Shown: one piece after another, positions 3,681 to 51,028 of the stretch
Layout: each line of letters opens with the position of its first letter
Numbering within the stretch: the stretch's first letter is position 1
Source of the DNA: Bolinopsis microptera
Lineage: Eukaryota; Ctenophora; Tentaculata; Lobata; Bolinopsidae
DNA length: 64,000 bases
NCBI RefSeq assembly: GCF_026151205.1
Contig: NC_087074.1
Span: forward strand, 992,001-1,056,000
Direction of reading: 5' to 3'
Notes under the pieces: generated by a model
What the model was told of the DNA's origin: nothing
Database searches by the model: none
What the model saw: the letters and a program-made list of their open reading frames with translations, nothing else
Program-made: the position numbers and the translations under genes

Positions 3681-3729
3681 ATTTTCCACTTGACAGTACT
3701 AGTGGCGGCAGGTGAGATTGATCTGGCAT

Positions 3730-20430: not shown

Positions 20431-21849
20431 GACAGACCAAGGAGAACCTTTCCGTCGTTAACTTACGGCGCAATAAATTTCTCATAGTTGTCATATTCTG
20501 GACAAAAAGTTCGAATTTTTGAAAAAATTCAACGGACTTTAACTTGGACGGACCTTAAATGAACGGACTTTATTTGAACGGACATTGAGATGAACGTTAA
20601 GGCCTCCAGCGTTCAATTAATGTCCGTCCAAATAAGGTCCGATAAGGTAACACTATAGAGTACAATTTAAGAAGGTGTACAAGTCGAAAATGGTATTCGC
20701 ACTTGTGGTGAAAAATTCCGCAGGTATTTTTACTGCAGTTGGGGTTATGTTGTTAATATAATGGCGCTTTTAAAGTAAATTTACTTTAAATTTTAGCAAG
20801 CGTTTTTTGCGTTTTGTTGTATTTTTTATTGTCGCTTAACCTCTGACATTCACTGGACACTGTAAAGTGTAAATAAATTTTACCTTTATTGTTTGAGGCT
20901 AGCTTCAGCACAACTTGAACTATACTCACCGCGATTAAATACCAAATAAAGCGTCGTTCACATATTACGTAATCACTGACGGGGAGGGGAGGCGTTTAGA
21001 AATGATTACGCTAGTGTAATTTTAACACGATAGCTAATAGCTACGCGTAAAACTGATTATGGAGGGGGAGGGGTTATAAATTTTCCAAAAAGTGATTACG
21101 TAATAATATATATGAACAACACCTTATTATTTGTTACGGTGACTTGTCCGATGGCACTGCCCGTCACTTGCCAAGTCACATATCCGGCACTCAGGCGTCA
21201 CTGTTTTGGCATTGTTCTGTCATATTCATTGTACTACTTTATTGTATTTTGATTCGGTCAGTAATATATTATTATGTTACACTGTCGAACTTTGATGCAG
21301 GTTCTGTTCCGTTCTGTTATCTAACTGCAGTTGACTGCGCTTGTTCGGTTATCTAACTGCAGTTGTCTGTGCTTGAGATTTAATGAACTATTTTTTACTG
21401 CAGCTGATAATATGCAGTTAATCTAGCAATAGTACCATGAAATTATAGATTTGAAGCTCTTACGGTGCCCATACCTTGATCTTAACGAAATTGAGGGACG
21501 AATGCTTTCGACATTGTTCTTTTTCCCACGGAGGGAGTTCAATCAAAAGTTTACTTAGGGAGTCTGAAATCGGGATTAAGTTTCACATTTCAGGCAGTTT
21601 GCCCTAATCTTATTCAGTTGAATTTAATGTTTTTAAAACTTTGCTCCAATCGGATTAGCAATGCTAATGAAACTGTGAAACTTTGAAAACTGTGAAACTG
21701 TTTACTTAGTAACTAGTGTACCAAACCTCCCTCCTAATATTACAGTAATGATAATATTGTAATATATGGTCTTCAGTGTACATAAAAGGAGCGTAGTAAT
21801 ACAGAATCTATATTTTTTAATGTTGTCATAGGGTGGCAAGTCCCCATAC

Positions 21850-21880
21850 ATCGTGGTCCGGTAGTTTCATCACGTCCTTA
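21850..21880 (-). repeat. 30-bp inverted motif, right member (left arm)
   Basis: Reverse complement of the motif at 8344-8374, reading CGTGGTCCGGTAGTTTCATC and then ACGTCCTTA. See that entry for the interpretation as a possible terminal inverted repeat. Confidence 0.5.
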
Positions 21881-23431
21881 TATATCAATGTTTGTGTACT
21901 TTTCCGTAAAAATTGACCTTATCATTAGTCGATACATTGCAATAATTGCAACCGCCCTCACAAATAACCAGAATGGAGGAGAGAACTATAAATAAATGTA
22001 ATTCTACCATCATGCACTCATTAAACTCTGAGTATTATTTCTGTAGACTAGTTTATATTATGACTTTATGATACGACTTTTCATCATATCTTAAATTTTT
22101 CTGTCCAGCGTTAAGTTAACATAACTTGAGGATTGTAAATCTTCTCCGTACCCTCCTTGCTGGTGTCATGAAACTATTTGATATATTTTCTCGTATGTAT
22201 TAAATTCGCATTCTTTTACTTATTCGTTAAACAACATGTCATTATAATATTTGGCATCCTATTATATCCCATCTAATTTATTAATTTCGATTTAGCATAT
22301 TTTAACCCTATAAGCAAGGTCTTCTTCGGAGTAGGAATAATAAGGAATGGTCAACACTCCACTTTTTTGAGAATTGAAGTAGTCCTTACATCACACCATT
22401 AGTAATTGCTGTTGTTCAGTATTATATAGGCTAAAATAGTGACAAACTGATGAGCTTTTCATTCAAAAATTAAGATCGCATAGGGTGACTCTAGGTGATA
22501 TAACATAAATAGAAACGTGCGGAAACCATACAAATTCCGGTTGCAGAGCTTAATTATTGCAGCACGAACTACTACTGTCAAGCTATGAGTATGAGTATTA
22601 GTAGTAAGCTATGAGTATGCTAATCTAGATATTTGAATTTTGACAAATCCTCTCTAAATCGGATCTGTCAACATCGCTAACCTCCCTCCTCTGATTCAGC
22701 GATCAGACGAGGACAGTAGCAGTTGCAACGTGTCAGTTTTAAGGTTTTCTTGCTCACAATCGTTTTGTCAGATATCGTTTTAGGTTATATTAAACAATAT
22801 TGCCTCAGAATTCCTCAGATATTGATCTGACCTTGACCTGAATAATTAGATACTTTTATAGGAAAGTAAAGTAGGATAGACTCCTGGGATTTCTGAAGCA
22901 TATCAAGTTAGTAATGGAAATTTGTTAAATTCCTGACTCCCCAAGATAGACGAACTTTATTTGATACCTTTAGTTTGTATCATAATATTATTCCACTATT
23001 TCCAAAGAGCTTCTAAACATTTATCAATCTCCTTTGTCCTTTATCATAAAATACCAGCCCTGTAAGACTTATGACTTTATGATAGCAGGTTAACATTCTT
23101 AACACAGAAACGCCTAATAAACAGTGTCAACATTTTCATTTTTCAATTCCTTCGTTCGTTTTTAGGTTTTGGAGTTCATTTCGAGCACCATCAGCTTACT
23201 TTTCGATTAAATGTTCACACTTCACACTTCACAGATCTTACTTTGCAGCTCACATACCCAATACTCTGAAGGTGTTCACAATTTGACAGAACAATAACCA
23301 GAAGCTCTGGAATCACAGAACAATTACCTGGGTAACTGATCAATAGCTCCAGACTCTGACTCTCTGTTGTGTAAAACTTATAACTTCAAGACGCATATCC
23401 TTCCTATAACTTCACACGCTCTGTCATGATA

Positions 23432-25744: not shown

Positions 25745-28700
25745 GTAAGTTCCTTAGCCCTTCATTCTTTATTGTAATTTTTACGCGTTCATATTTTGAT
25801 AGTTTAAAGTTGCCTGTTGTAGTACGTGTTGTACACTGTTTCGTTTCTTCACTATCAATTAAATGGGAGGGCTCACCTATTAACGCCTGCACTTGTGAGA
25901 TTTGTTTCACCCTTATCGGTACAAATGTGACAACCTCCCTATCTGATAACACGGTTTATAGCTCTGTAAGGTACAAATGTGACAACCTCCCTATCTGATA
26001 ACACGGTTTATAGCTCTGTAAGGACAATTTTACAGCTTCTTCAGCTCTCTTATCACCAATTCTCGTTAGCTTATTGAGGTTTCCCTTAGTTTCTATCAAT
26101 TGAGGTCGATTTATGTGTGAGATCATTTTTAACAACCCTGACCAGATTCCTGACCAGATTCCTGTTGCTCTTAAAACTAGACCCCTCCCTGGTATTGCTC
26201 GCCTCTTAATTTGATAAGCTATTCAAACTATTTCTTAAAACTGACAGCTCCAGTCTGTTAAATCACAGTTAAATCACTGCTCCACCCCTATAACAATATA
26301 ATCAATCACCTGATAATAAAATTTCTCTAAGTGTAAGTTTGAGATCTTCTCACTAAACTGGACATTGTATAGCCTATAGGGAAAAATGTTTTAAACTAAA
26401 TTGTGAGATATCTTGATATTATCATACCAGGAAACGAGGTACACCAGATACGTGATACACGATGATAGCTCTACTCAGTAAGCTAAATACTAAATTACCG
26501 TTTGTTACGTCTGTTGTTTAAAATGTATCAGCGCTGGGAATTATAATAACATTCCTATTTTTCTATAACTATTTTGTGGTTCTGCTGCTCTTGTCAGAAG
26601 GAACTTTTCAATTCAAATTGTGGTTCCGCGGTTGACAAATTATTCTATTATTATGTATGACTTGTTTCAAGTTTAAAAAGCTGCACAAATTTGCAACATG
26701 AAGAGGACAGTTTTTTAACAAAAAACCGTCCATAGACCACAATTTAAATCAAATTGACCACAATTGTATACCACGAGAGTTAAGAAAGTTTTAAAATAAT
26801 AAATCGAAGTATATCAATATACTCGACATCATGTTATGATCTTTATCTTTATTTTATTACGGCCAAGCTCAGCAGTTCATAGAAATTCGATCAATGATTA
26901 AAAAACAAAAATAAAATGAGGATACAGAGGCAGAAAATAAAAAGTATGAAAAGTCAAGGATAAAACACTAGATTCTTAAATACTATTATTTCAGTGGCAC
27001 TAGTAGCGACGCTAAGATTAGGAGATGGTAAAGAACACAACACTAGATTCTTAATCCCTATTATTTCAGTGGCACTAGTAGCGACGCTAAGATTAGGAGA
27101 GGGTAAAGGACACAAGCACTGCAGACAGATGGAGCTCCATGACCTTTGTGAAACGCCCCAGGTAAACAAACTAGTAAACGAATCCCTCAAGTATAATTAT
27201 AGGGTTTCAAAGGGATCATTGTAAACATCTATTTCTATGGTCCATTAATTTGTGACTCACGGATTAAATCCAAGTTCTCAGAATAATTATTAAAAATTGT
27301 ATCACAAAATATGAGCAAAAGTACCCCAAAGCTAACGTTATATGTCTCCCACAGGGTAGAGAATGCATTCAGTACACCCCTGACATGCAACCAGTTTGCA
27401 ACCAGTACCGAATGAACAAAGCAACAAAGACCACCACCATCCTGAGCAGTGAGACTGTCCCTTACTGGGGTAAGTGACTTATATGTTCCGAAACAAAAAA
27501 CCAGTCCATAGAAAATCCGCTGAAAATTACTAATTTACTTTCGATTCGAAAGAATTGATTTCAAGATCATTCATGCTGGATAATTTATTGGTACTTTGGT
27601 TGCAACTGATCCTCTTTAAATAGACAATAAGATCATTTTTCCAATAAAAAGGAAGTGACGTGTTTTCAACCCTTGTTTGACAATATTATTTGCTAATAAG
27701 AAGCCGTGTTGTACGGTTATTAACTTTAAAGGTACGGTTAAAGTACGGTTATTAACTTTAAAGGTGATAAACTTTTCTGCCTGCTCAAAGTTCAAGCATG
27801 GCTTGGTACGAAATTTTAATAATAGAGGAGTGAAAAAACATAGAATTTAAGACAGTAAATTCTGGCGACTGGCAGTCCTCGCAAGCTCCACTGAAAACCA
27901 TGGCCCGAAGAATTTTAGAATTTGAGTGCATTTTTGCTAAAACCACTGAGCTTCGTCAAATTGGGGGCATAAACCAAGAGGCGAAAATAGTGGATTTCGA
28001 TTGGCTGGCTGCCTCTGAAGCTGTTTGGTGAAATAGCGTAAGCATTAGTACTAAACCAGCTAAAATCCTAAATATTTGAAAATTGGGGAGGAAGAATTAC
28101 GTGAAGTGGGTGCTGAGAGGAGAAGACGAAATAGGGCGCATTTAGTCAGCTGCGGACCTGGTTTATTTGTCGACTATTACAAAATTCGGAGCACGCCTTC
28201 ATCTGCTCTGCATTTCTCTGCAAGCACACAATTTTAGTTTGTTGCGTTAACATTTAAAAAATATAAGCTGCTTACCATAATTAGCTGACGTAATCATTAA
28301 TCTGTGCCTAGTTATAATAATCTGGAATGTGACACTTATCATGTGAAATGTTAGTAAAACTGTCTCGAAATGTTTCACAATACTATCAGTGGATTCCTAT
28401 TGGAAGAACCTTGAGGTAGCAAAATCTGAAATAACAGCGAAGGTCACGACACGCCTTGTTTCCGGTTATAATCAGCCCGTGATTTGAGATTAAATAATAG
28501 TGCGATATCACTGGAGTCAGAAAAGCAGGGAAAAATTGTGGGAGATACTATTGTGATAATAATTTCGGCTTCCATCGGGAGACAATAATTGCTGGAGATG
28601 AATAAAATCAAATTACAATGGCCCTACCGTAGTAGTGAATGGTGGTGATTAGTATAATAGAGACTTTCCTTAGAATTCTCAATAATAGCACGTATATAAG

Positions 28701-31700
28701 AGTGCTGGGGTTGTGTCCAGTAAATCTGCACAGAAAATACTATAATCATTCCTCAAAAGAGAATTAAATCGAAACCTGGACAACTTTCAAACATATTCAT
28801 TTCGTGGGATAGTTGGTGCTTATTTTTGCAACCAAAATCTCCGTTCCCCACGATACCCTAGATCGATGGAAACTTTCTGCTGAATTTGCTACTACTTACT
28901 TGATCTGATCAACAGATAATTAACTTAAGAAAATGTCTCTAGAAATCATTATAAGTTATATATATAGCTGACGGACTGAAGAAAAAATAATACGAAAATT
29001 ACTTCAGAGGAAATTATGAATTACTGAAAGAAGCAAATATTTCTGCTATTATAACTAAAAGTGAAGACATCGGACAATATTAAATATATTGCTTTTATGT
29101 CCCAAAGTAATTTCCGATAGGAGAATAGCTCTCCACCCCATATGAATGAAAAATTTAATCACGGTAGGTAACATCAAGACCAATCCAACATTCGAATGAA
29201 CATACATAACAATCATTTTTCTGCAATTAGCAGCATACTATATTTTTTTAACTAATTACAACACTACAAATCTATTACATTTATTGAGAATTATGTAATA
29301 TAACGTGATGGAAATATTTTAAACGGGCATATCCTGTCCAAACCCAGGATGCACTACATGAAGAATTCGTTGTTACTTTGTTTGAAAAGCATTAATATAT
29401 AACAATTTTCCGAAAAAGGAGGCTGAAATTGAAAATAAGTTCTACATGAAATATAAATGTTTCCACTAACCCCAACCCCTTATTTTCAGACGCAGCCCCA
29501 CCAGTAATACTGCTGATAACCGGTAACCAGACCGTTGCACCAGGAGAGCCGTTTGAGATACGGTGCATGGCTGAGGGAGCCCCAGCTCCCTTTATCGAAA
29601 TAGTTTATAAGGAAGACGCTGATCTTAGTCCGGTATGAAACTTAGAACTTAAACTTAGAAATAGAACTTAAAGTGACTTGAAACTAAAGTAGTGCGCTTC
29701 AAAGTGAACACATACGCTTGTTTGACCATGTCAAAGTGAACGCATACGCTTGTTTGACTGTGTCAATTTGGCTCGATGCCAAAACAAAAATATTTCTGTT
29801 TGATTAGTTAGAGAGTCCTGCATAGTGGGACGCCCTGGTCATCTAGCTGTGATTCTGAGACTGCAGGTTTCCCCTCATCACATGCACCCTTAGTGACCAC
29901 CTCTTTGAGAGAAGGTTTCTTTAGCTCCATCTCTAAAACTCCGCTTATCCTCAGGTACCTGGCTCTGTCTCCAACTCGGTGGATATTGAGAAGCGAGCAG
30001 TGCAAACAATGATGGCCCAAACTTATGCTATAGAACAAGACGAGGGCTGGTATAGATGTGTGGCTAAAAACGGGGAGGGAGTTATCTATGAGGATACTTA
30101 CCTTACTATCGGTGGTAAGTCCCGTGGAAACCTTTTGACTTCATATAGTTCCTTAGCTGTAAAGTCCGCCTGTAAAGTCCGCCTGTAAAGTCCACCTGCC
30201 CTTTTAGGAACCCTTCTCCGATATTATTATTATGCAGTAAAGAAGTCCGATAGTATGCAGTAACTAATCACTAATTTATGCTAAGTTCGGATGGTTATAT
30301 AAATTGCAGATTAATCTCTCTGGTCATTTTCCGAGGAAAGATTGAACCTTTAAATGTTTGAAAGTCTCCTTATTATTATTTAATCACAGGATTGATAATA
30401 ATATAATACAGTAAAATATACTGTAACACACTATCATTGACCGTCATTGTCACAATGTTTGTACCAGGGTTTGAATCAGAATGAAGTCTAGTAACCTCAC
30501 GAACAATCAATGGACCTGTCAAGGGGTTTCTTAAAGGGACCCGGGACTAAAACCTACAAATAATAATAATGCCAGAAACCAAACAATATGACATCTAATA
30601 GAGCTTCTGGGGTTGCGATGCTTCTAAGGAAATTAATGCAAATCAAACCCCAAAATCCTTGTAAATGCCTGTGAACCCTTGTAACTTATTATGCGCATAT
30701 TGACGAAGGACAAATCAAAAATGACATCGTAAATCTGCAACACTAATGCAAACGCATCAAATCTGCAACCTAAATAAACTGTTAAAATCATTGACCAAAA
30801 AACCCACACAATGATTCAATCTAGCTAAAAAACTATAAGTCAGCTATAAGTGAACTTTAAGTCAGCTTTAAATCAGCTATAAGTATGCTATGGGACAACT
30901 ATCTGTCAGACCTGTGACTGTGTTGTAATGACCCGGAGACATGCTGTATTGTCTGGGACCCGCCTAAAAGCAGCGCCTGGCAGATATATCAACCAGCAGA
31001 TCGCTTTCTGACAGAAGAAGCATCTATCAAAGGTATCATTTAGGATGCCGGCTACTTTTAACAGTGCTTCAATGTGTTAAAAGTCCTCCTTAAATGTCAT
31101 GAATTTTGTAGCTTTGCAACTCTCTTATTTAGAAATTATACTTATTATACTTATAGGTTAAGTCGTAAAAATTAATTCTTCGGTATTAAAAAGTATCCTC
31201 ATAAGGTTTTTAAAAATTAACATTCATTCTGGATTACAGACGCGGTTTACCTTTAATCATTATCACTTATACGGGCAACATGCTATTCAGATTTAGATAT
31301 AATCTCATCATGGGTAAAATATCATTTAATACTGCTCAAAAGCTTGATTTTGGATTAACAGTGAACGCTGAGTCAATCAAGCGTCAGTAGGATTAGCAGA
31401 CACATGTTTAGCGGCTGGTCAACAGTGGGGTACAGAGTTTATGATTAGAAATCAGTCTCTGCCTCTCTCTATTCGTCAGAATTATATGGTCATTAGAAGA
31501 AGACATGCATTGCAAATGTTAATCAAGTTTTAACAATGCATGAATGCAAACCTTTCCTATTTTCTCGAGTTTTATCGACGGAACAATCAGTTTTAAATGG
31601 AGTAGAAAAATGTATCTTTTAATCCACGTGCTTATAAAGCCGCCAACTCGACTCCATGATTAGCTCATTAGGTTACAAAGCGTCAAGCCGACAGTTATCC

Positions 31701-33215
31701 AAATACTTTCAAATACTTTCACAAATCTCGAACGATCAGTACCACCTTATAGGTGTCTTTGTAATATCTTCTCTAGCTTCTTATGTGTTAAGGCAAAGGC
31801 TTCTAACTCCACAAGTTCACAACAAATTCGCGACAAAATGGCATAGTGAAAGACTTACAAATTCAAAATTTACCAATCGGTAAATCGGCAACTCCCCAAC
31901 TCAATAGAAAGAGCCCAAATTCTCCAAATCTATTGGAGGATGCACTTGGTCGCGGTGAAGACTTCGCACCTCTTGATTTCTATAATCTACAAAGAAAGAA
32001 CGAGGTGCCTTGAGGCACACAAAAAAAGGAATGAGAAAAATCAGAAAACTCTCAACTTCTTGGTCACACTATATATTTTGTTGATGATGTATCACATATA
32101 ACGTAAACCTGATCAAGAAGAAATTGAGAGTAAAATCTTGGTAACATGGTAATACACGTTCAGACTTTCCGATTTCATTATTTATTAAGCCAGGATGTTA
32201 TTGTTACGGCTTGTCCAGCTCTTTTAGGCGCGGAATTTTATGAAAATGTGAACTTTTTTCAACTGTACCTCCTCGGTCATACTTATAGTGACTCGCAAAG
32301 GATTATAGTCCATTATTCCTTATAAGGGCATCACGTGGTGTTTAGTTAGTATTCTACAAATTCTAGCAGGCTAACTAAACTGTTTACTATTTAACTGCTT
32401 TCAAGTACATAATATATTGATTCCGAAAATTATTATTTATTATTAAAGTTTCAAACCAAATTAGCTTTCTTTTCAAAGCATTCAATATTTGTATAATCCA
32501 CACCTACTAACCCAATCTCCAAACTCCTTCCATTTATCCCCACTTTTCTTACTCTCGTACGTCCTCAGATTTATGTGACACAGTGGTATGTGATGCACCC
32601 CAAGTTTGCAAAGCAGACTACGATCTCGGAATAGCTGAATGTTCGTGTCCCTTCTGTACTTGGGAAAACTACGAGACCGATCCTAACCTCTACTGTGGTA
32701 AGTAAGGACCGGTGTTACTAGGGTGTTACTAGGTGTTACTAGGGTGTTACTAGGTGTTACTAGGTGTTACTAGGGTGTTACTAGGTGTTACTAGGTGTTA
32801 CTAGGTGTTACTAGGGTGTCCCTTCTGTACTTGGGAAAACTACGAGACCGATCCCAACCTCTACTGTGGTAAGTAAGGACCGGTGTTACTAAGTGTTACT
32901 AGGTGTTACTAGGTGTTACTAGGGTGTTACTAGGGTGTTACTAGGTGTTACTAGGGTGTTACTAGGTGTTACTAGGTGTTACTAGGGTGTTACTAGGGTG
33001 TTACTAGGGTGTTACTAGGGTGTTAATATGGTGTTACTAGGTGTAATTAGGGTGTTACTAGGGTGTTACTATGGTGTTACTAGGTGTTACTAGGGTGTTA
33101 CTAGGGTGTTACGAGGTGTTACTAGGGTGTTACTAGGGTGTCCCTTCTGTACTTGGGAAAACTACGAGACCGATCCCAACCTCTACTGTGGTAAGTAAGG
33201 ACCTGTGCTTGAAAA

Positions 33216-33250
<35 letters not shown>

Positions 33251-35762
33251 CATAACAAAATTGCCTCCCCATTCAATGAAATTACAAACATTCAACCCTG
33301 GAGTAAAAAGGTTAAATGCTAGCCCACACACTATCACAATATGATAGTGTAACCTAACTTCCAAAATGTTGTCTGCTTAATTTACAAAGGAATGTTGTCG
33401 CAGGAACGGATTGTGGCGTATACTACTCACGGTGCTCCATCGAAGAGGAGAAGTGCAAGGGAGTAGATCTTGACATCTTCCACGATGGTGTTTGCTCCTC
33501 CTTCAGTAAGCAATCCAATAATATCCTAGGATCTTCAATCGACCATTAATTGTCAAAAGCAATCAATGTTGCCCTCATACTAGAAATGTTCAACGAGTGT
33601 TCAACTGGATCAGTATATACAAACTTGCCATTTTTAACCGCCCCATCTTTTATGGAATGAATGAGATATTTGTATCCCCCTTGGATGATTAAAAAACCAT
33701 CACAAAGGGGTAGCTAACCAAGTCGGCTGACCGCGAATGGTGTGATATTGATAAAAAAGCATATTTCACCAAAACGAACCCTCTCTAGGTCTGCCTGAGT
33801 ACTCGTACGAAGAGCTACAAGAAACAGAAGTTTATTACGGGGACGAGGTTGAGTTGGCCTGCAGAGGAATTCCTGCTGGAGACACCCCTGGACCAGAACC
33901 AAGAATCATGTACATATCTTACATACCAATCACTGTGTGCTCACAACTCTCAGATGCTAATATGCATTAAAACTGTTCTGGAAACTCTGCTAATCCTGAT
34001 ATATTGTAGTAGTCTAACTATCACCTAGAAACATATCTCCACTAACCCTCCCACCTGCTAATCTAACACTAGTAACACTCCCACATATCTCCACATATCT
34101 CCACTAACACTAACTAACACTAGTAACCCTCCCACCTGCAGGTGGTACCAAGATTGGGGGGCAGATATGGGCGGCAGGGAGCTGATAGGGGAAGGTAACA
34201 CTATCACCTACACAGTCACATTGTCCCGAGCTGATATAGTTTGTGTGGGGGTACATTGTCCTTCTGCACCCCTCCAAAGAGACATGACTGATATTAACCA
34301 CTTCCGACTAGCTGTCCCCCAGGAACCCACGGTGAGCGGTAGTAACCATCTAGTAACCACATAGTAACCACATAGTAACCACCTAGTAACCACATAGTAA
34401 CCACATAGTAAAAATCTAGTAACTACCTAGTAACCACCTAGCTGTCCCCCAGGAACCCACGGTGAGCGGGGCTCTTATTCAATTTTACAGTTTAAGCGGG
34501 AACTTTATTCACGCAAATCTCACCCCCATCTCCCAAGCTATTATTGGAAGAAACAATAATCATCTTTAAATATAAAGTTGATACCAAAACTTTGAATGAC
34601 TGTTGCAGCTAACAACCTTTTTCAGACACCTCCAACTCCATCTCCAACACCCACCCCCCGAATTATAACCCCGGAGCCCTTGTCAAGTACGGAATCCCGT
34701 CTCTACGAATCCACGTCCCCCTACCTCATCCCCACCACACCTCTCCCGCCTACATTAAGAGCAGACGGTGGTTCCGTATGTCAAATTATGGGAGACCCTA
34801 TGGTGTCCACCTTCGACAACAGATGGTAAGTCGTGAGAAGCTTTTATTTAAACTTTTAAAGTAATTATAATTTAATAGTTTTCAACTAAAGTAGTTACAG
34901 TTTAAAAGTTTTAAATTAAACTTAAAATAGTTAATAGTTATAGTAAAAATGTTTGAATTAATTTTTAAAAAATTACAAAACGACTATTAATAAAACAATC
35001 AAATAATTCACTAGCAACATATGCTATGGTGATAAAGTATGAACATAATGTTCATAACGTGACCAGTTATTCGTGTTAAGTGTCGATATAGACTGTCGAT
35101 ATAAACAAATGAATGCGTTCATTTTCAGTTTACTTCATTGAACAAAGCAGAGATATATCTATTATCACTTATCAGCATTATATCATATATCATACATGTA
35201 TCTTGATTCATCAAATCGCGGTGAACGGGTCTGTGAGTTTTAATAAGCTGATTAGAAGCGTACCAAGAACCATTGTCATATTCTAGACTCATTTCAAGAG
35301 TTATTTTATGCTCAACTGATAAAGGTTAAATGAATTAATGTGTCGTGCAATTTATGTAGCGATCTTGGTTGAGACACGTAAACGTTATGTGCTGTGAAAT
35401 TGAATATATATATTTCAATCAATTGAAAAGCAAGGTTGCTGGCATAGTTTTATCATTACGTCACTACAAGCTGCTCATCAAATGGAATGGCGCCACTAAG
35501 AACAATTTTCTTAGTCGGCAAAACCAACAAACTTTGGTCATTGGTGAACCTAACTAAAGAATCAATTAATCCTTCAATTAGTCACCTAAACAATTAGTTA
35601 GCTAAACAATTAAATAACCCTCCTATCTCCCAGGTACAAACAAGACGGGGTGTGCACGTACGTTCTTGCTATGGACTGCAGGTTCGCTCAGTGGTTTGTT
35701 TACGGACGGTTCATGCAGTACGGTGAAACCAGTGCTTTAGAAAGCATCACAATCTACAGCGG
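25708..35762 (+). CDS. Secreted Ig-Kazal-Ig-VWFD protein gene (spliced, 3' end missing)
   Basis: Eleven exons join with consistent phases: 25708-25744, 27070-27161 (or from 26995), 27355-27469, 29490-29632, 29955-30114, 32569-32697, 33404-33505, 33789-33909, 34142-34331, 34626-34825 and 35634-35762. The roughly 470-residue product has a signal peptide, a Cys-rich segment, an Ig domain (RCMAEG...DEGWYRC), a Kazal/follistatin-like module (ECSCPFC...CGTDCGVYYSRC), a second Ig-like domain (LACRG...WYQDW...VCVGVHC), a Pro/Thr linker and the start of a VWFD (CQIMGDPMVSTFDNRW). It is probably an extracellular matrix or secreted adhesion protein. The VWFD is incomplete, so later exons lie beyond 35762 or are lost. 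I do not know a named orthologue with this order. Confidence 0.85.
25919..26022 (+). repeat. 52-bp tandem duplication in intron 1
   Basis: GTACAAATGTGACAACCTCC and the next 32 bp are repeated head to tail with no visible difference. Confidence 0.9.
26966..27115 (+). repeat. 75-bp tandem duplication spanning the exon 2 acceptor
   Basis: The two copies (26966-27040 and 27041-27115) each contain CACTAGATTCTTAA, a pyrimidine-rich ATTATTTCAG acceptor and the first 35-45 bp of exon 2. They differ at a few bases (GATGGTAAAGAAC against GAGGGTAAAGGAC). The period is a multiple of three. Confidence 0.9.
26995..27161 (+). CDS. Exon 2 with duplicated acceptor (26995 or 27070)
   Basis: Two TTATTTCAG acceptors, 75 bp apart, precede the same sequence (TGGCACTAGTAGCGACGC). 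The downstream form, 27070-27161, encodes ALVATLRLGEGKGHKHC...CETPQ and ends phase 0 at a GTAAAC donor. Using the upstream acceptor would add 25 in-frame codons, because the copy is open throughout. The exon finishes the signal peptide and begins the Cys-rich segment. Confidence 0.75.
27355..27469 (+). CDS. Exon 3: Cys-rich segment
   Basis: The acceptor is CCCACAG and the donor GTAAGT. It encodes GRECIQYTPDMQPVCNQYRM and a Thr/Ser stretch ending in VPYW, phase 0 to phase 1. The two cysteines, with those of exon 2, suggest a small disulfide module that I cannot name. Confidence 0.8.
29490..29632 (+). CDS. Exon 4: first half of Ig domain 1
   Basis: The acceptor is TATTTTCAG and the donor GTATGA, phase 1 to phase 0. 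It encodes PPVILLITGNQTVAPGEPFE and then IRCMAEGAPAP, the strand-B cysteine and following turn of an I-set/C2 Ig domain. Confidence 0.88.
29955..30114 (+). CDS. Exon 5: second half of Ig domain 1
   Basis: The acceptor is ATCCTCAG and the donor GTAAGT, phase 0 to phase 1. It holds the D-x-G-x-Y-x-C signature (DEGWYRCVAKNGEG) of strand F and a final YLTI strand. Ig domain 1 is thus split between two exons. Confidence 0.9.
30159..30197 (+). repeat. 13-bp tandem repeat, three units (intron 5)
   Basis: TGTAAAGTCCGCC is repeated three times; the last unit reads CCACC. Confidence 0.85.
32569..32697 (+). CDS. Exon 6: follistatin-like/Kazal N-terminal half
   Basis: The acceptor is GTCCTCAG and the donor GTAAGT, phase 1 at both ends. 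It has a dense cysteine pattern (LCDTVVCDAPQVCKAD, AECSCPFCTW) as in follistatin-like leaders before Kazal modules. Its 3' half and donor are copied twice more in the next intron (see 32645-33204). Confidence 0.88.
32645..33204 (+). repeat. Exon 6 end plus donor present three times within a minisatellite
   Basis: A block of about 60 bp runs from GTGTCCCTTCTGTACTTGGG through the GTGGTAAGTAAGGACC donor. It occurs at 32645-32711 (the real exon end), 32816-32882 and 33138-33203. Between the copies are long runs of GGTGTTACTA(G), a 9-10-bp unit, at 32711-32815 and 32882-33137. The second and third copies share a T-to-C change (GATCCC against GATCCT), so one derives from the other. They lack acceptors. 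Confidence 0.93.
33214..33249 (+). repeat. (GA)n microsatellite
   Basis: About 16 GA units directly follow the third copy of the exon 6 end. Confidence 0.9.
33404..33505 (+). CDS. Exon 7: Kazal core
   Basis: The acceptor is GTCGCAG and the donor GTAAGC, phase 1 at both ends. It encodes GTDCGVYYSRCSIEEEKCKG and ends HDGVC, matching the CGTDG-x-Y-x-N-x-C...C...G-x-C core of Kazal domains. The usual Gly after TD is Cys here, and the cysteine spacing suits the family. Confidence 0.88.
33789..33909 (+). CDS. Exon 8: Ig-like domain 2, first half
   Basis: The acceptor is CTCTCTAG and the donor GTACAT (weaker), phase 1 to phase 2. It encodes an acidic Tyr-rich lead and YYGDEVELACRGIP, an Ig strand-B cysteine. 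Confidence 0.8.
34142..34331 (+). CDS. Exon 9: Ig-like domain 2, second half
   Basis: The acceptor is CACCTGCAG and the donor GTGAGC, phase 2 to phase 0. It contains WYQDWG (core Trp), TITYTVTLSRADIVCVGVHC (strand-F cysteine region without the usual Tyr) and a closing strand. The last 23 bp and the donor are copied again at 34438-34469. Confidence 0.85.
34309..34469 (+). repeat. Exon 9 end plus donor present twice around a minisatellite
   Basis: CTAGCTGTCCCCCAGGAACC and the next bases through GGTGAGCGG occur at 34309-34340 and 34438-34469. Between them are about nine units of AGTAACCACCT or AGTAACCACAT. The second copy has an intact donor but no acceptor of its own. Confidence 0.92.
34626..34825 (+). 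CDS. Exon 10: Pro/Thr linker and start of VWFD
   Basis: The acceptor is TTTTTCAG and the donor GTAAGT, phase 0 to phase 2. It opens with TPPTPSPTPTPR and a Ser/Thr/Pro-rich stretch likely to be O-glycosylated. It ends CQIMGDPMVSTFDNR, the hallmark C-x-x-x-GDPH-x-x-TFDG start of a von Willebrand type D domain, with Met replacing the usual His. Confidence 0.9.
35634..35762 (+). CDS. Exon 11: VWFD continuation
   Basis: The acceptor is CTCCCAG and the donor GTAAGT, phase 2 at both ends. It encodes YKQDGVCTYVLAMDC, FVYGRFMQYG and ITIYSG, matching the G-x-C-x-Y-x-L-x-x-DC pattern of VWFD. The domain needs about 90 more residues, so at least one further exon is expected. Confidence 0.88.
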
Positions 35763-37520
35763 GTAAGTGATCGGGCTTTAGCTTCACAACCAGGAACGAG
35801 CAGTTGGAGGAATTCAGGAAATAAGGAGCCAAGAATTCTGAAAATTTTGAGAGATTCGCAGGATAGTCTGGCACGGAAACTTGGTATTTACCTCTGGAGA
35901 TCAAAAGCTGTGAGACGTTAAATTTTCTGTAGAATTCCAACTAGAAAGTATAGAGACTGTCTGAGTAATGCACAGCTTCCTGCGGATCCTGACTTTCGTT
36001 TAACCAATTTTCCGGAATGGACTAAGCACACTAATTTAAGACAAAATAAGGCTAATAACATTGAACAGGTCAACTGTCTGTCCCTTTTAGATCACAATAA
36101 GGTCCGAAGGAAGTTGGAAACAACATTTTAACACTTTTACATATTTTATTCATATTGTACGTGTGATCCCATTTCACTCCAACATGGCAAACAGCGTGAA
36201 GGGTGTTAGTTCAGGGTGTTAGCAATTTAACTCAAAAAAGTGCTCAAAAAATGAACTTTTCTACAGCTTCTTTTATACGTAGAATTTAAAAGTTAAGGCT
36301 GTGACCTAATATTTAACAATGTCCATGATTATGATGGTTAGCAGTGAAAACACTCCTAATTAATGTTTTACGTAAGCAAGGATATAGGAAGATATTTGTG
36401 AAGTTAAAATCGTGACGCGATTGCAAGGTCAAGAAATCATGAAGTTATGAAACCTCTGACAGAGAATTTCGGTGAAATGACAAGTTCAGTAAAGCAATAA
36501 CTGCCAATATGTCAAATTAGTGGTAAACTCACGATGTGGTAACACCTTTACATAGATCGCCGGGTACTAGAGAGTTTCAGCGCTACTGGAGGCACGTATT
36601 TACGTAATGCCGTTTTATTTTTAGACAAGTTGCGTTCTATGGAAAAAGAAAGAATGTAGTATTTTTAGCATTTTGCTGTGCAATGGAAACAGGTGTATCT
36701 ATTAAAAACGCGCACAAATTTAATGTTTAACATACCTTAATATTGCTTAATTTTATTATTATATCGGAGCAGATTTTGAAGCATTCCACTGGATTGACAA
36801 GGCAGTTTTTTGCTAAACCTGCCACCAATAACTGATAACCGGAGGTTGAGAGGACAAAATAATGTTAGATTAAAATAAGGTGGTATATTAATAATAATTG
36901 TTTAAGAAATGTTGAGGTAAAGTTTGATGCAATCAATAAAATGCACGTACTGCATATTTTAACTATAAGCGTACTGCATATTAATCATGAAAATTAAACG
37001 CCAAAAATAAACGTACGGGGTCTCCTCAATAACAAAGGTATCATTAAACTGGATACTAATATAATATCCTAGCGATCAAAGGAGCATCTGACAACGCGTA
37101 AGAAACTTTAAAAGCAAAGACATTAAAACACACATCCTAACATAAGATTCCTTGCTACAGTATTCGAATAAGCAGACTCGCAGTTTAGCGACTCGAGACT
37201 GTGTCAAAATTCCCGCAATTAGCTAATTATGAAGCAATTAGCTAATTATGAAGCACACGTCCCCCTGAAAACAGCATAACTATAAGATAATATCTGTTTG
37301 AGCCACAACTTCATTCCGACCTGTTGCTGCGGCTAATCGAACAAAAAACTTTACAGGCAAGGAGCTTATAAACTGATGACTTACTTAACGAAATCTTAAA
37401 CAAAATGCAAATCCAAATAGTTTAAACTAATGGCACAACTGGAGGGCTGGCTATCAGACCAGAGTTTGTAGAAATTTGGAATGTTAGGGATGATGCAATC
37501 ATAAAGACATGTGATAGCAG
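35763..37520. other. AT-rich stretch, no exon recognised
   Basis: This is presumably an intron or the 3' flank of the VWFD gene. I looked for a phase-2 acceptor followed by VWFD-like coding sequence and did not find one. A minus-strand frame at 35737-35940 overlaps exon 11 and looks spurious. Confidence 0.5.
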
Positions 37521-40500
37521 TTTCCGGCAAATTTCTTACCGTGAACCAATTAATTCAGTCAACTATAGAGATGCAAAAGCCGCGATCGAGGTGCTGGAAT
37601 TTGATTTGGGTCGGATAAGCTCAACAGTGAGAAATCTTAAAACAAAACGAAAAGTTGTAGTTTTTAAAAAACTCTGATCCCATTTTCAGATTATGAAAAT
37701 TTCTGAACGCACATTAGACAGCTTGAAACATTTTTGCCCACAAACCAATTAGTCAGTTAAATTGAAGATTGTATGAAAACTAACTTGGGGTACTGGAAGT
37801 CAAAAATCTCGAAAAACATTGGAAAATCATACTGACCCCATACTCCTGTCCCATTTTCTCCAGTTTTTTGGTAGCTAAATTTCCAGGGCCGAAATTTACA
37901 GTTTCGGCCGAATTTCTGACCTGCAACCAATAGTCATCAACTTTAGATGGGGGCCAAATGACACGATCGAGGCGTGCTAAAACGTTTGATTATGGGTCGG
38001 AGGAAGCTCACTAGGAGAAATCTTAACTAAAACATAACGAAAAGCTGTATTTTTAAAGCACGTCCCATTTTCAGAAATGAAAATTTCTGAACGCACCTTT
38101 GAGACAGATGGATAAATTTCTTGTCTGCCACACAAAAATAAACCATTAGTCATTAATTGATGATGGTATGAAACCAAATTGGGGGTACTGGAAGTCAAAA
38201 TCTCGAAAAAAAAATTGGAAAATCATATACTGCCCCATACGGCAATACTCTGTCCATTATCAGTTTTTTTTTAGGAGCTAGAAATTTCCAGGGCCGAAAT
38301 TTTACAGTTTCGGCCGAAATTTCTCCTGCAACCAATTAGTCAGTCAACTATAGATGCCAAATGACACGATCGAGGTGCTAAACGTTTTGATTTTGGACGT
38401 AGGAAGCTCACAGGAGAAATCTTAAAAACAAAACGAACAGTTGTACTTTTAAAAGCTCTGTCCCATTCTATTCCTGAAATGACAATTATCTGAACGCAAC
38501 ATTTGACAGATATTGGAATGAAATTTTTGCCCACAAACCAATTAGTCAGTTACTTTGATGAAGGTGTGAAAACCAATTGGGGTACTGAAGTACAAAATCA
38601 CGAAAAAAATTGTGGAAAATCATACTGTCCTATCATACTCCCTGTCCCATGTTTCAGTTTTTGGGATGCTGGAATTTTCCAGGCCGTAAATTTTTAACAG
38701 TTTCTGCCGAATTTCTCGACCTGCAACCAATTAGTCAGTCAACTTTAGATGCCAAATGACACATCGAGGTGCTAAAGTTTGATTGTGTCGGAGGAAGCTC
38801 ACAGAGAAATCTTAACGAAAAACGAAAAGTTGTATTTTTAAAAACTCTTGTATATGATGATAGTATGAAACCAAATGGGGTAACTGGAAATCAAGATCTC
38901 GAAAAAAATTGGAAAATACATAAACTGTCCCATACTCAGTCCCATTATTCAGTTTTTGGAGCAGAAATTTTTCCAGGTCCGAAATTTACAGTTTCGGCCA
39001 AATTTCTAATTTCTGACCTGCAACCCAATAAAATCATACACTATAGATGCCAAATGACGCGATCGGAGGTGCTGGAAGTTTGATTTGGGTCGATTAAGCT
39101 CCACAGGAGAAACTTAACAAAAACGCAAAGTAGATATTTTAAAACTCTGTCCCATTTTCAGATATGAAAATTTCTGAACGCAACATTTAGAACAGATTGG
39201 ATGACTTTTTGCGCACAAACCAATTATCATTAATTGATGATTGTATGAAACAAAATTGGGTACTGGAAGTCAAAAATCTCTCGAAAAACATTGGAAATGT
39301 CATACTTGTCCGCATACTCTGTCCCCATTTTTTTTTCATTTTTGGAGCTGAAATTTCTCAGGGCCGGAAATTTTTACAAGTTTCGGCCGAATTTCTGACC
39401 TGCATCCGCAATTAGTCAGTTCAACTTTTTAGATGCCAAATGACACGATCGAGGTGCTAAACTTTGATTTGGGTCGGAGGAAGCTCACAGGAGAAATCTT
39501 AAAAAACGAAAAGTTGTATTTTTAAAAAGCTCGTCCGCATTTTCTGAATGAAAAAATTTCTGATGCCACATTTGACAGATTGGATGAAATTTCAGCCCAC
39601 AAAACCAATTAGTCAGTTAATTGATGATTGTAATGAAACCAAATTGGTACTGGTAAGTCAAAATCCTCCTCGAAAAAAAATGGAAAATCTAACTGCCCCA
39701 TAACGCATAACTCTGTCCCATTTTTCAGTTTTTTTGGAGCTGAAATTTCCAGGGCCTGAAATTTTAAACAGTTTCGGGCCGAATTTCTGACCTGCAACGC
39801 ACACCAATTAGAGTCATCAACTATAGATTGCCAAATGACACGACTCGAGGTGCTAAACTTTTGATTTGGGTCGGAGGAAATCTCACAGCCAGGAGAAATC
39901 TTAACAAAACGAAAAGTTGTATATTTAAAGCTCTGTCCCATTCAGAAATAAAAATTTCTGAAAACCAAATTTGACAGATTGGATGAAATTTTTTTTTTTG
40001 CCCACAAACCAATTAGTCATTAATTGATGAATGGGTGAAACCAAATAGGTACAGAATCAAAATCTACCGAAAAAAATTGAAATCATACTGTCTCAAACTT
40101 CTGTCCCATTTTCATTTTTGGAGCTGAAATTTCCAGGGCCGAAATTTTACAGTTTCTTCTGCCGAATTTCTGACCTGCAAAAACCAATTAGTCAGTCAAC
40201 TATTAGAGCCAAATTACACGATCGAGGTGCTAAAAGTTTGATTTGGGTCGGAGGAAGCTCACAAGGAGAAATCTGAAACAAAACGAAACGTTGGTATTTT
40301 TAAAACTCTGTAATTGATGTGGTATGGCAACCAAATGGGGTACTGGAAAGCAAAATCTCGAAAAAAATTGAAAATCATACTGTCCCATACTCTGTCCCAT
40401 TTTCCAGTTTTTGGAGCTGAAATTTCCCAAGGGCCGAAATTTTAACAGTTTCGGCCGAATTTCTGCTACTGCACCAATTATCAGTCAAATATAGATGCCC

Positions 40501-43500
40501 AATACAACGACGAGGTGCTGGAAGTTGAATTGGGTCGTATGAAAGCCAACAGGATAAATCTTAACAAAACGAAAAGTTTTATTTAATAAAACTCCCTGTC
40601 CCCATTTTCAGATATAAAATGTCTGAACCACATTTGACAGATTGATGAGATTTTTTTTTTGCCCAAAAACCAATTAGTCAGTTAATGAGTGATGGTATGA
40701 AAACCAAATTTTGGGGTACTGGAAGTCAAAATCTCGAAAAAAATTGGAAAAGCATACTGTGCCCATACTCTGTCGTCCCATTTTCAGTTTTGGAGCTGAA
40801 ATTTTCCAGGGCGAAATTTTTAGAGTTACGGCCGAATTTTCTGACCTGCCAACCAATTAGTAAGTCAACTATAGATGCCAAATGACACGATCGAGGGCCT
40901 CTGGAAATTTGATTTGGGTCGGAAAATTGCTTCACAGGAGAAATCTTAACAAAACGAAAAGTTGTATTTTTAAAACACTCTGTCCCCATTTTCAGATATG
41001 AAAATTTTATGAACGCACATTTAACAGATTGATGAAATTCTGCCCACAAAACCAATAAGTCAAGTTAATTGATGATGGTATGAAACCAATTTGGATACAA
41101 GGAAAGTCAAATATCTCGAAAAAACTTGGAAAATCATACAGAATCTCAATCATACTCCTGATTTTCAATTTTCCAGTTTTTGGAGCAAAAATAATCCAGG
41201 GCCGAAAATTTATCAGTTTTCGGCCGAATTTCTGACGCTGCAACCAATTAGTCAGTCCAAACTATAGACGTCCAATATACTCGATCGAGGTGCTGGAAGT
41301 TGATTTGGGTCGGAAAAAGCTCACAGGATAAATCTAACAAAACGAAAAGTTTATTTTTTAAAACTCTGTCCCATTTTTACAGATATGAACATTTCTGAAA
41401 CGCACATTATGACAGATTGGATGACATTTTTTGTCCGAAAAAAAACCAATTAGGTCGTGTTAATTGCTGATGGTATGAAACCAACTTGGGGTTCTGGATG
41501 GTCAAAATCTCGAAAAAAATTGGAAAATCTTCCTACACCAACTTTGTCTCATTTCAGTTTTTTGGATGCTGAAATTTCAGGGCCGAAATTTTACAGTTTC
41601 GGCCAAATTTCTGCCTGCAACCAATAAATCAGTCCAACTATAGATCCAAATGACACGATCGAGTGTGGCTAAAAAGTTTTGATTTGGGTCGAGGAAAGCT
41701 CACAGGAGAAATCTAATAACAAACAAAAGTTGTATTTTTAAAACATCTGTCCCATTTTTCAGAATATGAAAATTTCTGGAACGCACATTTGACAGATGGA
41801 TAGAAATTTTTTGCCCACAAACAATTATCAGTTATTGAGATGGAATGAAACCACATTTTTGGGACTGGAAATCAAGATCTCGAAAAAAATTGGAAAATCA
41901 TACTGACCCATACTTGTCCCATTTTCAGTTTTTGGAGCTGAAATTTCCAGGCCGAAATTTTAGAGCATTCGTCCGAATTTCTTCTATCTGACCTGCAACC
42001 AATTAATCCAGTCAACTATAGATGCCAAATGACGCGATCGAGGTGCTGAAGTTTGATTTGGGGTCCGGAGAAGCTCACAGGAAAATCATAAAACAAAACG
42101 AAAAGTTTGTATTTTTAAAAACAAAAACTCTGTCCCATTTCAGAATGAAAATTTCTTCCTGAACGCACATTTGACAGATTGTGGATAAATTTTTTGGCCC
42201 ACAAACAACCAATAAGTCAGTTAATTGATGATGGATGAAACCAATTATGGGGTACTGAATCAAAAACTCGAAAAAAATTGGAAAATCTTACCTGCCCCAT
42301 ACGGCATAACTCTGTTCCCATTTTCAGTTTTGAGCTGTAATTTCCAGGGCCGAAATTTTACAGTTTCGGCCGAATTTCTGACCAGCCACCAATTAGTCAT
42401 TCAACTATAGATGCAAATGACAACGATTGAGGTGCTGGAAGTTGATTTGGTCGGATAGAAGCCAGAGGAGAAATCTTAATCATTAACAAAACGAAAAGGT
42501 TGATTTTTCAACACTGTCCCATTTTACCCCAGAAATGAAAAATTCTGAACGCACATTTGCCAATTGATGAAATATTTTGCCCCACAAACCAATTAGTCAG
42601 TTAATTGAGATGGTATGAATCCAAATTGGGGTTACTGGAAGTCAAAATCTCGAAAAAAATTGGAAAACTTACTGCCCCATACGCGGCATACACTGTCCCA
42701 TTTTCAGGTTTTTAGGCGCTGCAACTTTCCAGGGCCGAAATTTTAACAGTTTCGGCCGAATTTTCTGACCCCTGCAAACAATTATCAGTCAACTATAGAG
42801 CAAATGACACGATCGAGTGCCTAAACGTTTGGATTTGGATCGGAGGAAGCTCACCAGGAGAAATCTAACTAAAACGAAAAGTTGTATTTTTTAAAAAAAA
42901 AAAAAAAAAGCTCTGTCCCATTTTCAGATGAAAATTTCTGAATGCACATTTGCAGATTGGCTGAAATTTTTGCCCACACACCAATTAGTCAGTTAATTGT
43001 TGATGGTGTGAAACCAAAAATGGGGTACGTGGAAGTCAAATCTCGAAAAAACTTGGAAAATCATACTGTCCCATACTCTGTCCCCATTTTTCAGTTTTTT
43101 TTGGAGCTGAAATTTCCAGGGCCGAAATTTAACAGTTTCTTCTGCCGAATTTTCTGACCTGCAACCAATTAGTCAGTGCACTAAGATCCAAATGACACGA
43201 TTGAGGTGCTAAAAGTTTGATTTGGGATTCGGAGGCAGCTCACAGGAGAAATCTTAACAAAACAAAAGTTGTGATATTTAAAAAACTCTGTATTTGAGAT
43301 GGTATGAAAACCAAATTGGGGTTACTGTAAGTCAAAATCACGAAAAAAGTTGGAAAAACATACTGTCCCATACTCTGTCCCATTTTCCATTTTTTTGGCG
43401 CTGAATGTTCCAAGGGCCGAATTTTAACAGTTTCGCCCGAATGTGTCTGTCCTGCAACCATTATCAGTCAAATATAGATGCCAAATGACACGATCGAGGT

Positions 43501-45956: not shown

Positions 45957-46821
45957 GTAAAATTAGGATGAGTAAGAGGATGTAGAGAGCGATGATAAAA
46001 GGATTGAAACTTTGAATGACGCAGCAATAAAATGCGAGAACAGAAGTGCAAGGATAATTTATCAGAAAAGTAGCAAGAAGATAAAAGGTTGGTGCGGAGA
46101 CTTGAAAAAAGGTTCTTCGATGAGATAGATGAGGGTCAAAGCAAAGAAAAGAAAATAGAGCGAAAGGAGTTTCTAAAGAGGGCTTGATAATGAAGTTTTG
46201 ATAAAGGAGAAAGACTTTAGTATATAATAATATGCCTAATCACACATCAGTTACCTACTGCATCATAGAGACACCAAAATCTACTCACCGTCACCTGCGG
46301 AGAGAAAAAGCCTTCCTGATGCGGGAATTTAAATTTTACTTTTCAAAATAATTAGATTATAATCAATTCTCCTCCCTCGATTTTTCAGTTTCTCTTTCAA
46401 TCAATGTAACTAAAACGTACAAATAATTATCGAAATTATTGATTCATCATCACAATATGAAATCAACTTCTGAGCCTCTGGCCAAAGCTAAATATCAGTG
46501 GATCGTGTATTAAAATTCAAAGTTACACATCCCATTCTAGTACCATGGAGAATCACCAATAAATTCTAAACTGTGTACGGCTGCTTTACCGTGGAACCTT
46601 GTTTTCGGTGTGGGGTTCGATTATGGGATAGATTTTGTGACGTTTTCTAAAAAGGAGCAAGATCTACCAGATTTTCCTTTAACGTTCTATAAAATACTAC
46701 TGACAATTGTTAAAGTACTTTCTGTCACAGTTTGTAAAACTTGAAGTACATTAAGTGGGGCCGGGGGGGTCTCTATCAAAATTCACTCGAAATCCGTTTT
46801 TATAGTTATTTAATACTAACT
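45957..46821. other. Non-coding stretch before the right arm
   Basis: This is probably intron sequence of the gene starting at 45863. It is A/G-rich to about 46230 and AT-rich afterwards. No exon is seen. Confidence 0.4.
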
Positions 46822-49800: not shown

Positions 49801-50160
49801 TGAACTCTGATATCATTGTGGTAATTTAATTTCCCGAAGCTGCAAGATTTTGCAGTTTTTTATTTCCGGGTGCAGATAATTATAAAGACTTAAAATAGAA
49901 TTAAAGTCGATGTACCAAGCGCTTAAGGGCCGTTGCAATCTATAAAAGTATAAATAAATTGTATAGTGGAGGCACTATTTACTCAATTTAGGACAGGCTC
50001 TGTTAACTTGGTGAGAAAAATCGCCATCAGGTCTAAATTCTTTTCTTTCTCAAGGGCTCAGGGTATCCGTATGGGTAATAAGATTTCAGTGATGCAGCTA
50101 GATTTCGAAATATACCTGGAACTTGTAATTCATAGACTGTGTATTTAACAATTACCATAT

Positions 50161-50187
50161 TAGGAACCGACCGGATATCCGGCAGAA
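50161..50187 (+). mobile_element. Isolated hAT terminus related to 62579
   Basis: TAGGAACCGACCGGATATCC and the following bases match the left end of the hAT element at 62579 with one or two changes. No partner terminus is seen nearby, so it looks like a truncated end within the short TIR-A copy. Confidence 0.55.
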
Positions 50188-50925: not shown

Positions 50926-51028
50926 CTTTGTATCACGTGGTGACCCCCACTGTCGCTTCACTATAGAGTTTCGACGGTACAGGGGGAGCCGCGCACTCGT
51001 GCGCGGCGGGTCATACAACGTATGACAA
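50926..51028. mobile_element. 103-bp MITE-like insertion in TIR-A
   Basis: GATTTA occurs at 50920-50925 and 51029-51034, while the long TIR-A copy has one uninterrupted GATTTACCG at about 19561. The insert ends are partly inverted (TTTGTATCACGTGGTGACCC against TTGTCATACGTTGTATGACC). It carries a 20-bp palindrome at 50988-51007 (GCCGCGCACTCGTGCGCGGC). The duplication may be 6 or 7 bp. It is too small to code. Confidence 0.75.

Follow-up and report, generated by a model that had tools for sequence, protein, structure and literature searches.

Duplicated exon edges in a Bolinopsis microptera gene: probable target-site duplications around insertions of a dispersed minisatellite

How does one gene come to carry extra copies of three of its exon edges, each with its splice site? 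The question is raised by a gene in a 64,000-nucleotide stretch of the ctenophore Bolinopsis microptera (NC_087074.1, positions 992,001 to 1,056,000; here called the window, C3:992001-1056000). An earlier note on this stretch had proposed a local process that starts in intronic minisatellites, by slippage or repair, and copies exon edges. We compared the window with the assembly, which comprises 264.65 Mb in 232 contigs (C1-C13, 15–26 Mb each, hold 258.07 Mb together, or 97.5%; C14 holds 0.2 Mb). The results indicate that the copies at exons 6 and 9 are probably target-site duplications, perhaps produced by introner-like insertions during staggered-break repair with a tandem repeat as the filler.

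The window gene has at least 10 exons (27070-35762), and exons 2 to 11 translate as a single open frame. The product contains Ig (1.6e-11) and VWD (5.9e-6) domains; exon 1 was not found. The 3′ end and donor of exon 6 are present in triplicate as a 66-bp segment (53 bp of exon and the 13 intron bases GTAAGTAAGGACC), those of exon 9 in duplicate as an identical 32-bp segment, and the acceptor and 5′ end of exon 2 are doubled with a 75-bp period, all with the junctions that the earlier note had claimed (Table 1). That note had assigned two different minisatellites to the spaces between the copies. This proved incorrect: GGTGTTACTAG at exon 6 is, to within about 1 base, the reverse complement of TAGTAACCACC at exon 9, and hence both belong to one family. 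Its tie between copied edges and intronic minisatellites held for exons 6 and 9 and did not extend to exon 2, where no family unit is present. The association exceeds chance, as had been suspected, since a flanking duplication was found only at the exon-6 and exon-9 arrays among 20 window minisatellites tested. Judged from splice signals, the copies would create extra splice sites, namely duplicated donors at exons 6 and 9 and a duplicated acceptor at exon 2, again as proposed. The copied exon-6 and exon-9 donors look like decoys, because their use would bring in-frame stop codons into the transcript; splicing to the upstream exon-2 acceptor would lengthen the product by 25 codons without a change of frame.

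The 10–11 bp minisatellite family (TAGTAACACC/TAGTAACCACC) is dispersed across the genome on both strands. Four family patterns gave 172, 276, 31, and 272 exact genome matches, and none of the reversed control patterns had a match. The unit is thus not private to one locus, as a product of local slippage would be. We examined a first set of family loci (20 from the first pattern list and 30 more from the lists of all four patterns) and a second set of 20 more picked by end-of-array patterns, and used 20 random 4-kb stretches (80 kb) as the comparison sample. The family loci were picked among the matches listed, by array match alone and regardless of gene content. The second set is rich in the GGTGTTACTAT subfamily with long arrays.

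At each locus we searched by one fixed rule for X, a locus-specific direct repeat on both sides of an array cluster. X flanked the array at 31 of the 64 testable clusters of the first set (66 clusters, including the two of the window gene) and at 5 of the 22 testable clusters of the second set, which held two further untestable ones; the overall figure was 36/86. With a single member kept from every pair of paralogous or neighbouring clusters, X was found at 30/74 clusters, four of which are weak (L001, L014, L018, and L074). Random placements in random loci gave X at 26/1320 and shifted placements within the family loci, which are rich in other repeats, at 184/2133, both scored with a slightly laxer version of the rule; arrays of other minisatellites gave 2/79. 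The automatic rule misses L007 (about 18 bp with 2 differences, by eye), L052 (16 bp), and the second array of L006. X is about 15–76 bp long. Three X pairs of 32–59 bp are 100% identical, and other X copies carry private differences. Because the unit recurs at unrelated loci, many of them with their own flanking duplication, the arrays must have originated elsewhere. The earlier proposal of a copying process therefore stands in its link to minisatellites and, probably, in its appeal to break repair, and falls in making the process only local. Several copied edges are likewise not special to one gene, as had been supposed, since two such edges within 1–2 kb are found at L006, at L057, and, tentatively, at L005 and at L094 as well.

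Two unfilled copies of family loci were found in the window itself. Positions 1-469 of L052 correspond to window 27681-28153 (94.5%) and positions 531-770 to window 28138-28382 (95.1%), so that 16 bp are duplicated around the L052 array. Positions 1-476 of L008 correspond to window 31541-32015 (96%) and positions 1146-1580 to window 31963-32398 (90%), which puts the duplication at about 52 bp; additional tandem copies and arrays separate the duplicated stretches. Both targets are non-coding dispersed repeats and not exon edges. As the unfilled copies hold a single X and no array, these comparisons demonstrate insertion with target duplication at L052 and L008. Direct repeats of locus-specific sequence therefore flank an insert, as in staggered-break repair. 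For the family in general, including exons 6 and 9, we regard insertion with target duplication as very highly probable.

An origin in place, in which slippage or unequal exchange in minisatellites already present in introns copied the neighbouring exon edge, would account for part of these data. Local exchange does occur once an array is present, as is evident from the three copies at exon 6 and from the at least three X copies at each of L020, L057, and L076. However, one unit at unrelated loci cannot arise locally, the two unfilled copies have neither array nor second X, and other minisatellites are rarely flanked by X. We therefore consider local origin very unlikely.

The insertion junctions gave some indication of how the filler is joined. 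The L052 insert starts with CTGCATTTCTCTG, which is found also downstream in the target, as would be expected of a filler snippet acquired by template switching. Among 16 other rows with fillers, short target matches (9–10 bp) were found at four and none at twelve; templated filler, which is clear at L052 only, was rejected as a general rule. Bases common to unit and X at the junctions are GTGT at exon 6 and CTAG at exon 9 (by eye).

We compared 71 sequences (70 family loci and the window) with the arrays masked, and no flank common to many loci was found. Twenty-four pairs were alike over at least 30 bp: ten were whole paralogous copies, two were the unfilled copies, and the rest were scattered repeats. 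The unit phase varies at both the start and stop junctions of the arrays. These results bear on the alternative of a true mobile element with an enzyme of its own for insertion, be it a transposon of the introner type or a retrotransposon whose tail is the repeat. In that case nothing more than the minisatellite would remain of the element, or nothing more would be required. Introners are similar sequences at many unrelated intron positions with flanking target duplications (Gozashti et al. 2022, PMC9860276), and the dispersal, target duplications, and splice-site nearness of the family fit them. On the other hand, introners with DNA-transposon features have duplications of 3–9 bp (PMC9860276), far from the about 16–76 bp found here (terminal inverted repeats were not searched systematically). 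The masked flanks also have no common body with defined ends, such as a DNA transposon or miniature inverted-repeat transposable element would have, and the arrays end at varying unit positions. Target-primed retrotransposition is compatible with target duplications of variable length, which counts in favour of a mobile element. On balance we judge such an element unlikely to be the cause.

An assembly artefact, in which repeats were collapsed or misjoined, deserves mention in that tandem arrays are hard to assemble. We regard it as extremely improbable, as many loci lie on 13 large contigs with locus-specific X, the X copies have private differences, and paralogous pairs share the kind and place of the array (L016/L019, L068/L073, L069/L072, and L070/L071). 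The regions C2:12-14 kb and C2:459-464 kb, which contain L069-L072, are paralogous and inverted with arrays at matching places, and these insertions are probably older than the C2 duplication.

A dispersed family, a locus-specific X, a single X at two unfilled copies, a varying end phase, and the lack of a shared body are thus observed, and from them we infer staggered nicks, end joining with fill-in, and capture of an array as filler. The two strands would be cut roughly 16–76 nt apart, a stretch of the dispersed 10–11 bp minisatellite would be captured as filler in the break, and fill-in of both ends would double the DNA between the cuts to give X-array-X. An X that reaches across an exon edge would bring a second copy of the splice site, and the gene would survive with one copy remaining joined to the exon. 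Where X lies within an exon and contains AG/GT (the slash marks the splice junction), the left copy could act as the donor and the right copy as the acceptor, and the array would become a new intron. Unequal exchange afterwards would give the X-array-X-array-X structure of exon 6. Survival would favour insertions whose X holds a splice site or AG/GT, which would explain the form of the exonic insertions. As to the route itself, the chance that it was staggered-break capture seems to us even.

Several known systems resemble this scheme in part. In Daphnia neointrons, attributed to staggered double-strand-break repair, direct repeats lie at opposite ends of an intron-forming insertion and internal repeats come from repeated events, but the repeats are 4–12 bp (PMC4202315); most of those described here exceed that length, and their filler comes from a single recurring minisatellite family. 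Nickase breaks with 46-nt overhangs in mouse stem cells lead to tandem duplications by end joining (PMC5730883). The range of duplication lengths is alike, but that is an experimental system and the available part of the paper mentions no recurring filler family. Direct repeats near intron borders have likewise been taken as insertion marks (Rogers and Bendich 2025, PMC11782384); these are 4–30 bp with a mean of 11.4, and no minisatellite body is mentioned in the part available. In tandem duplication of an AGGT segment (PMC3443670), the duplicated AG/GT could supply donor and acceptor, as at L004, L007, and L063, but here a minisatellite filler derived from outside lies between the copies. With introners the insertions share splice sites that come from a duplicated target and new introns that keep the reading frame intact; they differ in that the body is a tandem array of 10–11 bp units without fixed ends, and in that many insertions lie on existing exon edges (PMC9860276). 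The process thus works like introner insertion and staggered-break intron gain, and is set apart from introners because their short target duplications and fixed ends are lacking. A case of intron gain through tandem duplication of an AGGT segment has reportedly been found in potato.

We next consider the positions of the arrays relative to splice sites. A strong donor was defined by a position weight matrix score of at least 8, with generic matrices, and the permutation test covered 77 paralogue-free clusters, one of each related pair being removed. Strong array-facing donors within 40 bp numbered 18 against a permuted mean of 5.60 and a maximum of 13 (0/1000), and array-facing acceptors 19 against 9.35 (2/1000); for acceptors facing away from the array the count was 11 against 9.34 (326/1000). 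When the two window clusters were excluded, there were 16 array-facing donors against 5.33 (0/1000), and 11 clusters held such a donor against 5.24 (11/1000). The first set alone gave 16 against 4.69 (0/1000). Removal of the related pairs had changed the donor count from 21 to 18 and the permuted mean from 5.65 to 5.60. The donor density toward the array (80 clusters, with the related pairs L078/L093 and L062/L063 kept and L092 left out) was 3.47 per kb at 0–40 bp, 1.13 at 40–80 bp, 0.98 at 80–160 bp, 0.63 at 160–320 bp, and 0.39 at 320–480 bp, versus 0.72 at random loci. For 104 arrays of other minisatellites, the values were 0.40 per kb toward and 0.54 away. One counted donor (the second site of L018) lies within degenerate units. 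A true excess of arrays at splice sites is likely from these data.

The positions of X itself were examined in 25 cases. Eight of 31 rows were removed, four as weak or array-like (L001, L014, L018, and L074) and four as paralogous copies (L019, L071, L072, and L073), and two pairs (the second array of L006, and L050) were added by hand; the better of the two copies per locus was then scored against single control segments. By eye and after the fact, X was clearly on an exon edge or in an exon in 14/25 (L004, L006 twice, L020, L049, L057 twice, L059, L063, L069, L076, L077, and the window twice), tentatively so in 6/25 (L002, L005 twice, L050, L051, and L070), and unassigned or in a non-genic repeat in 5/25 (L008, L009, L011, L016, and L068). 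Donors that run straight into the array were also seen at L013, L018, L050, L060, and L078 (GTGAGTTACTAGG, GTAAGTTACTAGG, GTACGTTACTAGG, GTAAGGTGTTACTAAGG, and GTATGGTGGTTACTAGG, respectively), where X was undetected; at L013, L018, and L050 the donor end overlaps GTTACTAGG of the unit.

As with introners, the family unit lies beside splice sites of unrelated genes (P4-ATPase, SDR, FH2, ammonium transporter, cadherin, and LSM). X is found on the edges of two P4-ATPase exons in one 1.5-kb locus (L057; PDB match 5.2e-20), of an SDR exon (L059; 4e-9), of an FH2 exon (L069/L072; 6e-8, 32.6 bits with a cut-off of 34.8), and of an ephrin-receptor-like exon, in which the two edges are each duplicated (L006; Ephrin_rec_like 4.5e-6). 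At L020, L076, and L077, X lies at edges of open frames with splice signals and without a Pfam match. A cadherin intron of 266 bp is mostly array (L015; Pfam 3.3e-11 across the join), a putative 227-bp intron at L012 is probably mostly array, and at L016 the array extends up to the acceptor of an LSM-domain gene (2.3e-10). Pfam returned no family for the peptides of L004, L013, L020, L063, L076, L077, L088, and L001, nor for one P4-ATPase exon searched alone, and gave sub-cut-off matches only for those of L005, L049, and L094.

At L004, L007, and L063 the array lies inside coding sequence at a duplicated AG/GT, predicted splicing there restores the frame, and these arrays may be new introns. 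At L007, in an ammonium-transporter gene, the donor GCCAG/GTAACACC and the acceptor GCCAG/GTGGATAA lie in copies of about 18 bp with two differences, and the 319 bp between the copies are mostly array. The predicted spliced product gave an Ammonium_transp match across the join (1.2e-6), and five paralogue matches to the spliced peptide pass the join without a stop (34–39% identity, E 4.5e-6 to 0.0024). Four extra paralogues were added because a search with the spliced peptide would miss genes with an intron at the join; all 9/9 paralogues covering the join have no intron there. At L004, in an astacin-like gene, X is 37 bp and identical, with AAG/GTGAGA on the left and CTCAG/GTGAGA on the right and a predicted intron of 140 bp. 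Downstream, an astacin-domain exon of like strand follows after about 240 bp, and the joined-exon peptide matched its own two halves only. At L063, X is 46 bp with CTAG/GTGA in both copies, the open frame is restored, and the predicted intron is 529 bp; the acceptor has no good pyrimidine tract and no protein match was found. In two other ammonium-transporter genes, C8:13937213 and C8:13995234, the frame runs unbroken through all 399 positions of the domain, which sets them apart from the rest of those detected in the genome; they are possibly retrocopies or acquired genes.

The minisatellite might be a mobile intron-maker without coding body or fixed ends, captured time and again at staggered breaks, preferentially at exon-intron edges and exonic AG/GT. 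It would then be a class of introner without a transposon, with the target duplication supplying the splice sites, and recent or still active because three X pairs of 32–59 bp are 100% identical. We hold this wider reading as a tentative suggestion, more doubtful than not.

The following results weigh against the interpretation of the copies as insertions concentrated at splice sites. X was absent by the rule at 33/64 first-set and 17/22 second-set clusters, and the independent second-set X are few (L090, and L094 twice), as L081 and L098 copy other loci. No source of the filler was traced. The exon edges were assigned by means of open frames and splice signals rather than RNA. Donors facing away from the array were slightly raised (9 against 5.46, 76/1000). 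The second set alone (17 clusters) showed no donor excess (0 against 0.62 expected) and 3 acceptors against 1.34 (147/1000); this set is small, with fewer than one donor expected. In the X-based count, acceptors at the highest threshold showed no excess (2 against 1.4, 75/200). The excess at edges over deep intron is unexplained by break capture alone; targeting via transcription-linked breaks, or microhomology of GT(A/G)AGT with GTTACTAGG, is our guess. Finally, L007 may possibly represent a shifted or replaced old intron: 17 bp downstream of the join, 4/9 of its paralogues are interrupted by an intron of another phase, and L007 is not. The splice bias comes from the first set, because the second set has no donor excess, and our confidence in the bias was lowered for that reason. 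The second-set result and the intron 17 bp from the L007 join also lowered our confidence both in the account as a whole and in the mobile intron-maker.

The duplication at exon 2 is a different matter. Six two-copy duplications of 30–107 bp were counted in the 64-kb window, compared with two in the 80 kb of random loci, and exon 2, as one of these six, is a plain tandem duplication that needs no special cause. It might also be a lesion of the exon-6 and exon-9 kind repaired without filler. Ordinary, mutually unrelated tandem duplications that overlap exon edges by chance fit exon 2 well; extended to all three edges, this explanation leaves the filler family common to exons 6 and 9 and the X at other loci unexplained, and we give it almost no credence. 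Near-perfect tandem duplications were also seen at 25918-26027 (52 bp) and 57646-57863 (107 bp).

The origin of new introns is a long-standing question, and for most of the known bursts of intron gain the source identified has been introners that resemble transposons (PMC9860276). In the present genome a simple tandem repeat seems to act in an introner-like way via break repair. The long duplications record the original target, and unfilled copies are present in the same genome. Because some X pairs agree perfectly over as much as 59 bp, individuals, or ctenophores of closely related species, may prove to differ in whether an insertion is present, which would open this route of intron gain to a direct test in an animal. 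The duplicated donors and acceptors also form a natural set for asking how the spliceosome chooses between identical sites. Our literature search, which left most subscription papers outside, gave no introner report for ctenophores and no account of minisatellite insertions of the kind in the window gene; the main text of PMC9860276 has no mention of ctenophore, Mnemiopsis, minisatellite, or tandem repeat.

Table 1. Coordinates of the duplicated exon edges, arrays, and unfilled targets in the window.
Feature	Position	Strand	Remark
Exon 6 3′ end, donor and 13 intron bases, copy 1 (joined to exon; junction 32697/32698)	32645..32710	+	
First array, TAGTAACACC family (reads GGTGTTACTAG on +)	32711..32815	-	
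Exon 6 end and donor, copy 2 (junction 32868)	32816..32881	+	stops follow if donor used
Second array of TAGTAACACC family	32882..33137	-	
Exon 6 end and donor, copy 3 (junction 33189), running on into remainder of intron 6	33138..33203	+	
Exon 9 3′ end and donor, copy 1 (junction 34331/34332)	34308..34339	+	
TAGTAACCACC subfamily array, orientation opposite to exon 6 arrays	34340..34437	+	
Exon 9 3′ end and donor, copy 2 (junction 34460/34461)	34438..34469	+	
Exon 2 acceptor and exon 5′ end, 75-bp tandem duplication; exon starts 26995 and 27070	26964..27120	+	
End of intron 8, degenerate family units (CTAGTAACACT)	34034..34141	+	units at 34069-34079
Unfilled target, single copy of 16-bp stretch doubled around L052 array	28138..28153	+	sequence match
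Unfilled target, single copy of ~52-bp stretch doubled around L008 arrays	31963..32014	+	sequence match

At the end of intron 8, a 25-nt stretch ending in AACCCTCCCACCTGC at 34034-34058 is repeated (84% alike) at 34115-34139 as the exon 9 acceptor. Elsewhere, GGTGTTACTAT subfamily arrays had no X by the rule at L079, L082-L084, L091, and L092, and those at L079 and L091 begin near a donor-like site (by eye).

With regard to the source of the unit, eight contig ends (both ends of C1, C2, and C4; one each of C3 and C5) contained neither unit nor TTAGGG arrays and did not reach the telomere. A telomeric origin of the unit is not supported by these ends. A viral source was set aside; one IMG/VR contig had a single exact 20-mer.

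The window contains further repeats. Inverted repeats pair 5640-9231 with 52157-55933 and 20649-22913 with 46814-52003 (90–97% identical), with their inner ends about 43 and 24 kb apart, and a direct repeat pair lies at 9800-10712 and 48800-49733; together these pairs may represent a large nested or foldback mobile element. Long open frames at 1520-5189 (-) resemble a retrotransposon of the type without long terminal repeats (non-LTR; by eye). A satellite of 388–395 bp, split into two blocks, and 1.4 kb of tandem copies of a 19-bp unit occupy 37518-38848, 40311-43283, and 60509-61931, and the flank of L087 partly resembles the 388–395 bp satellite (77–78%).

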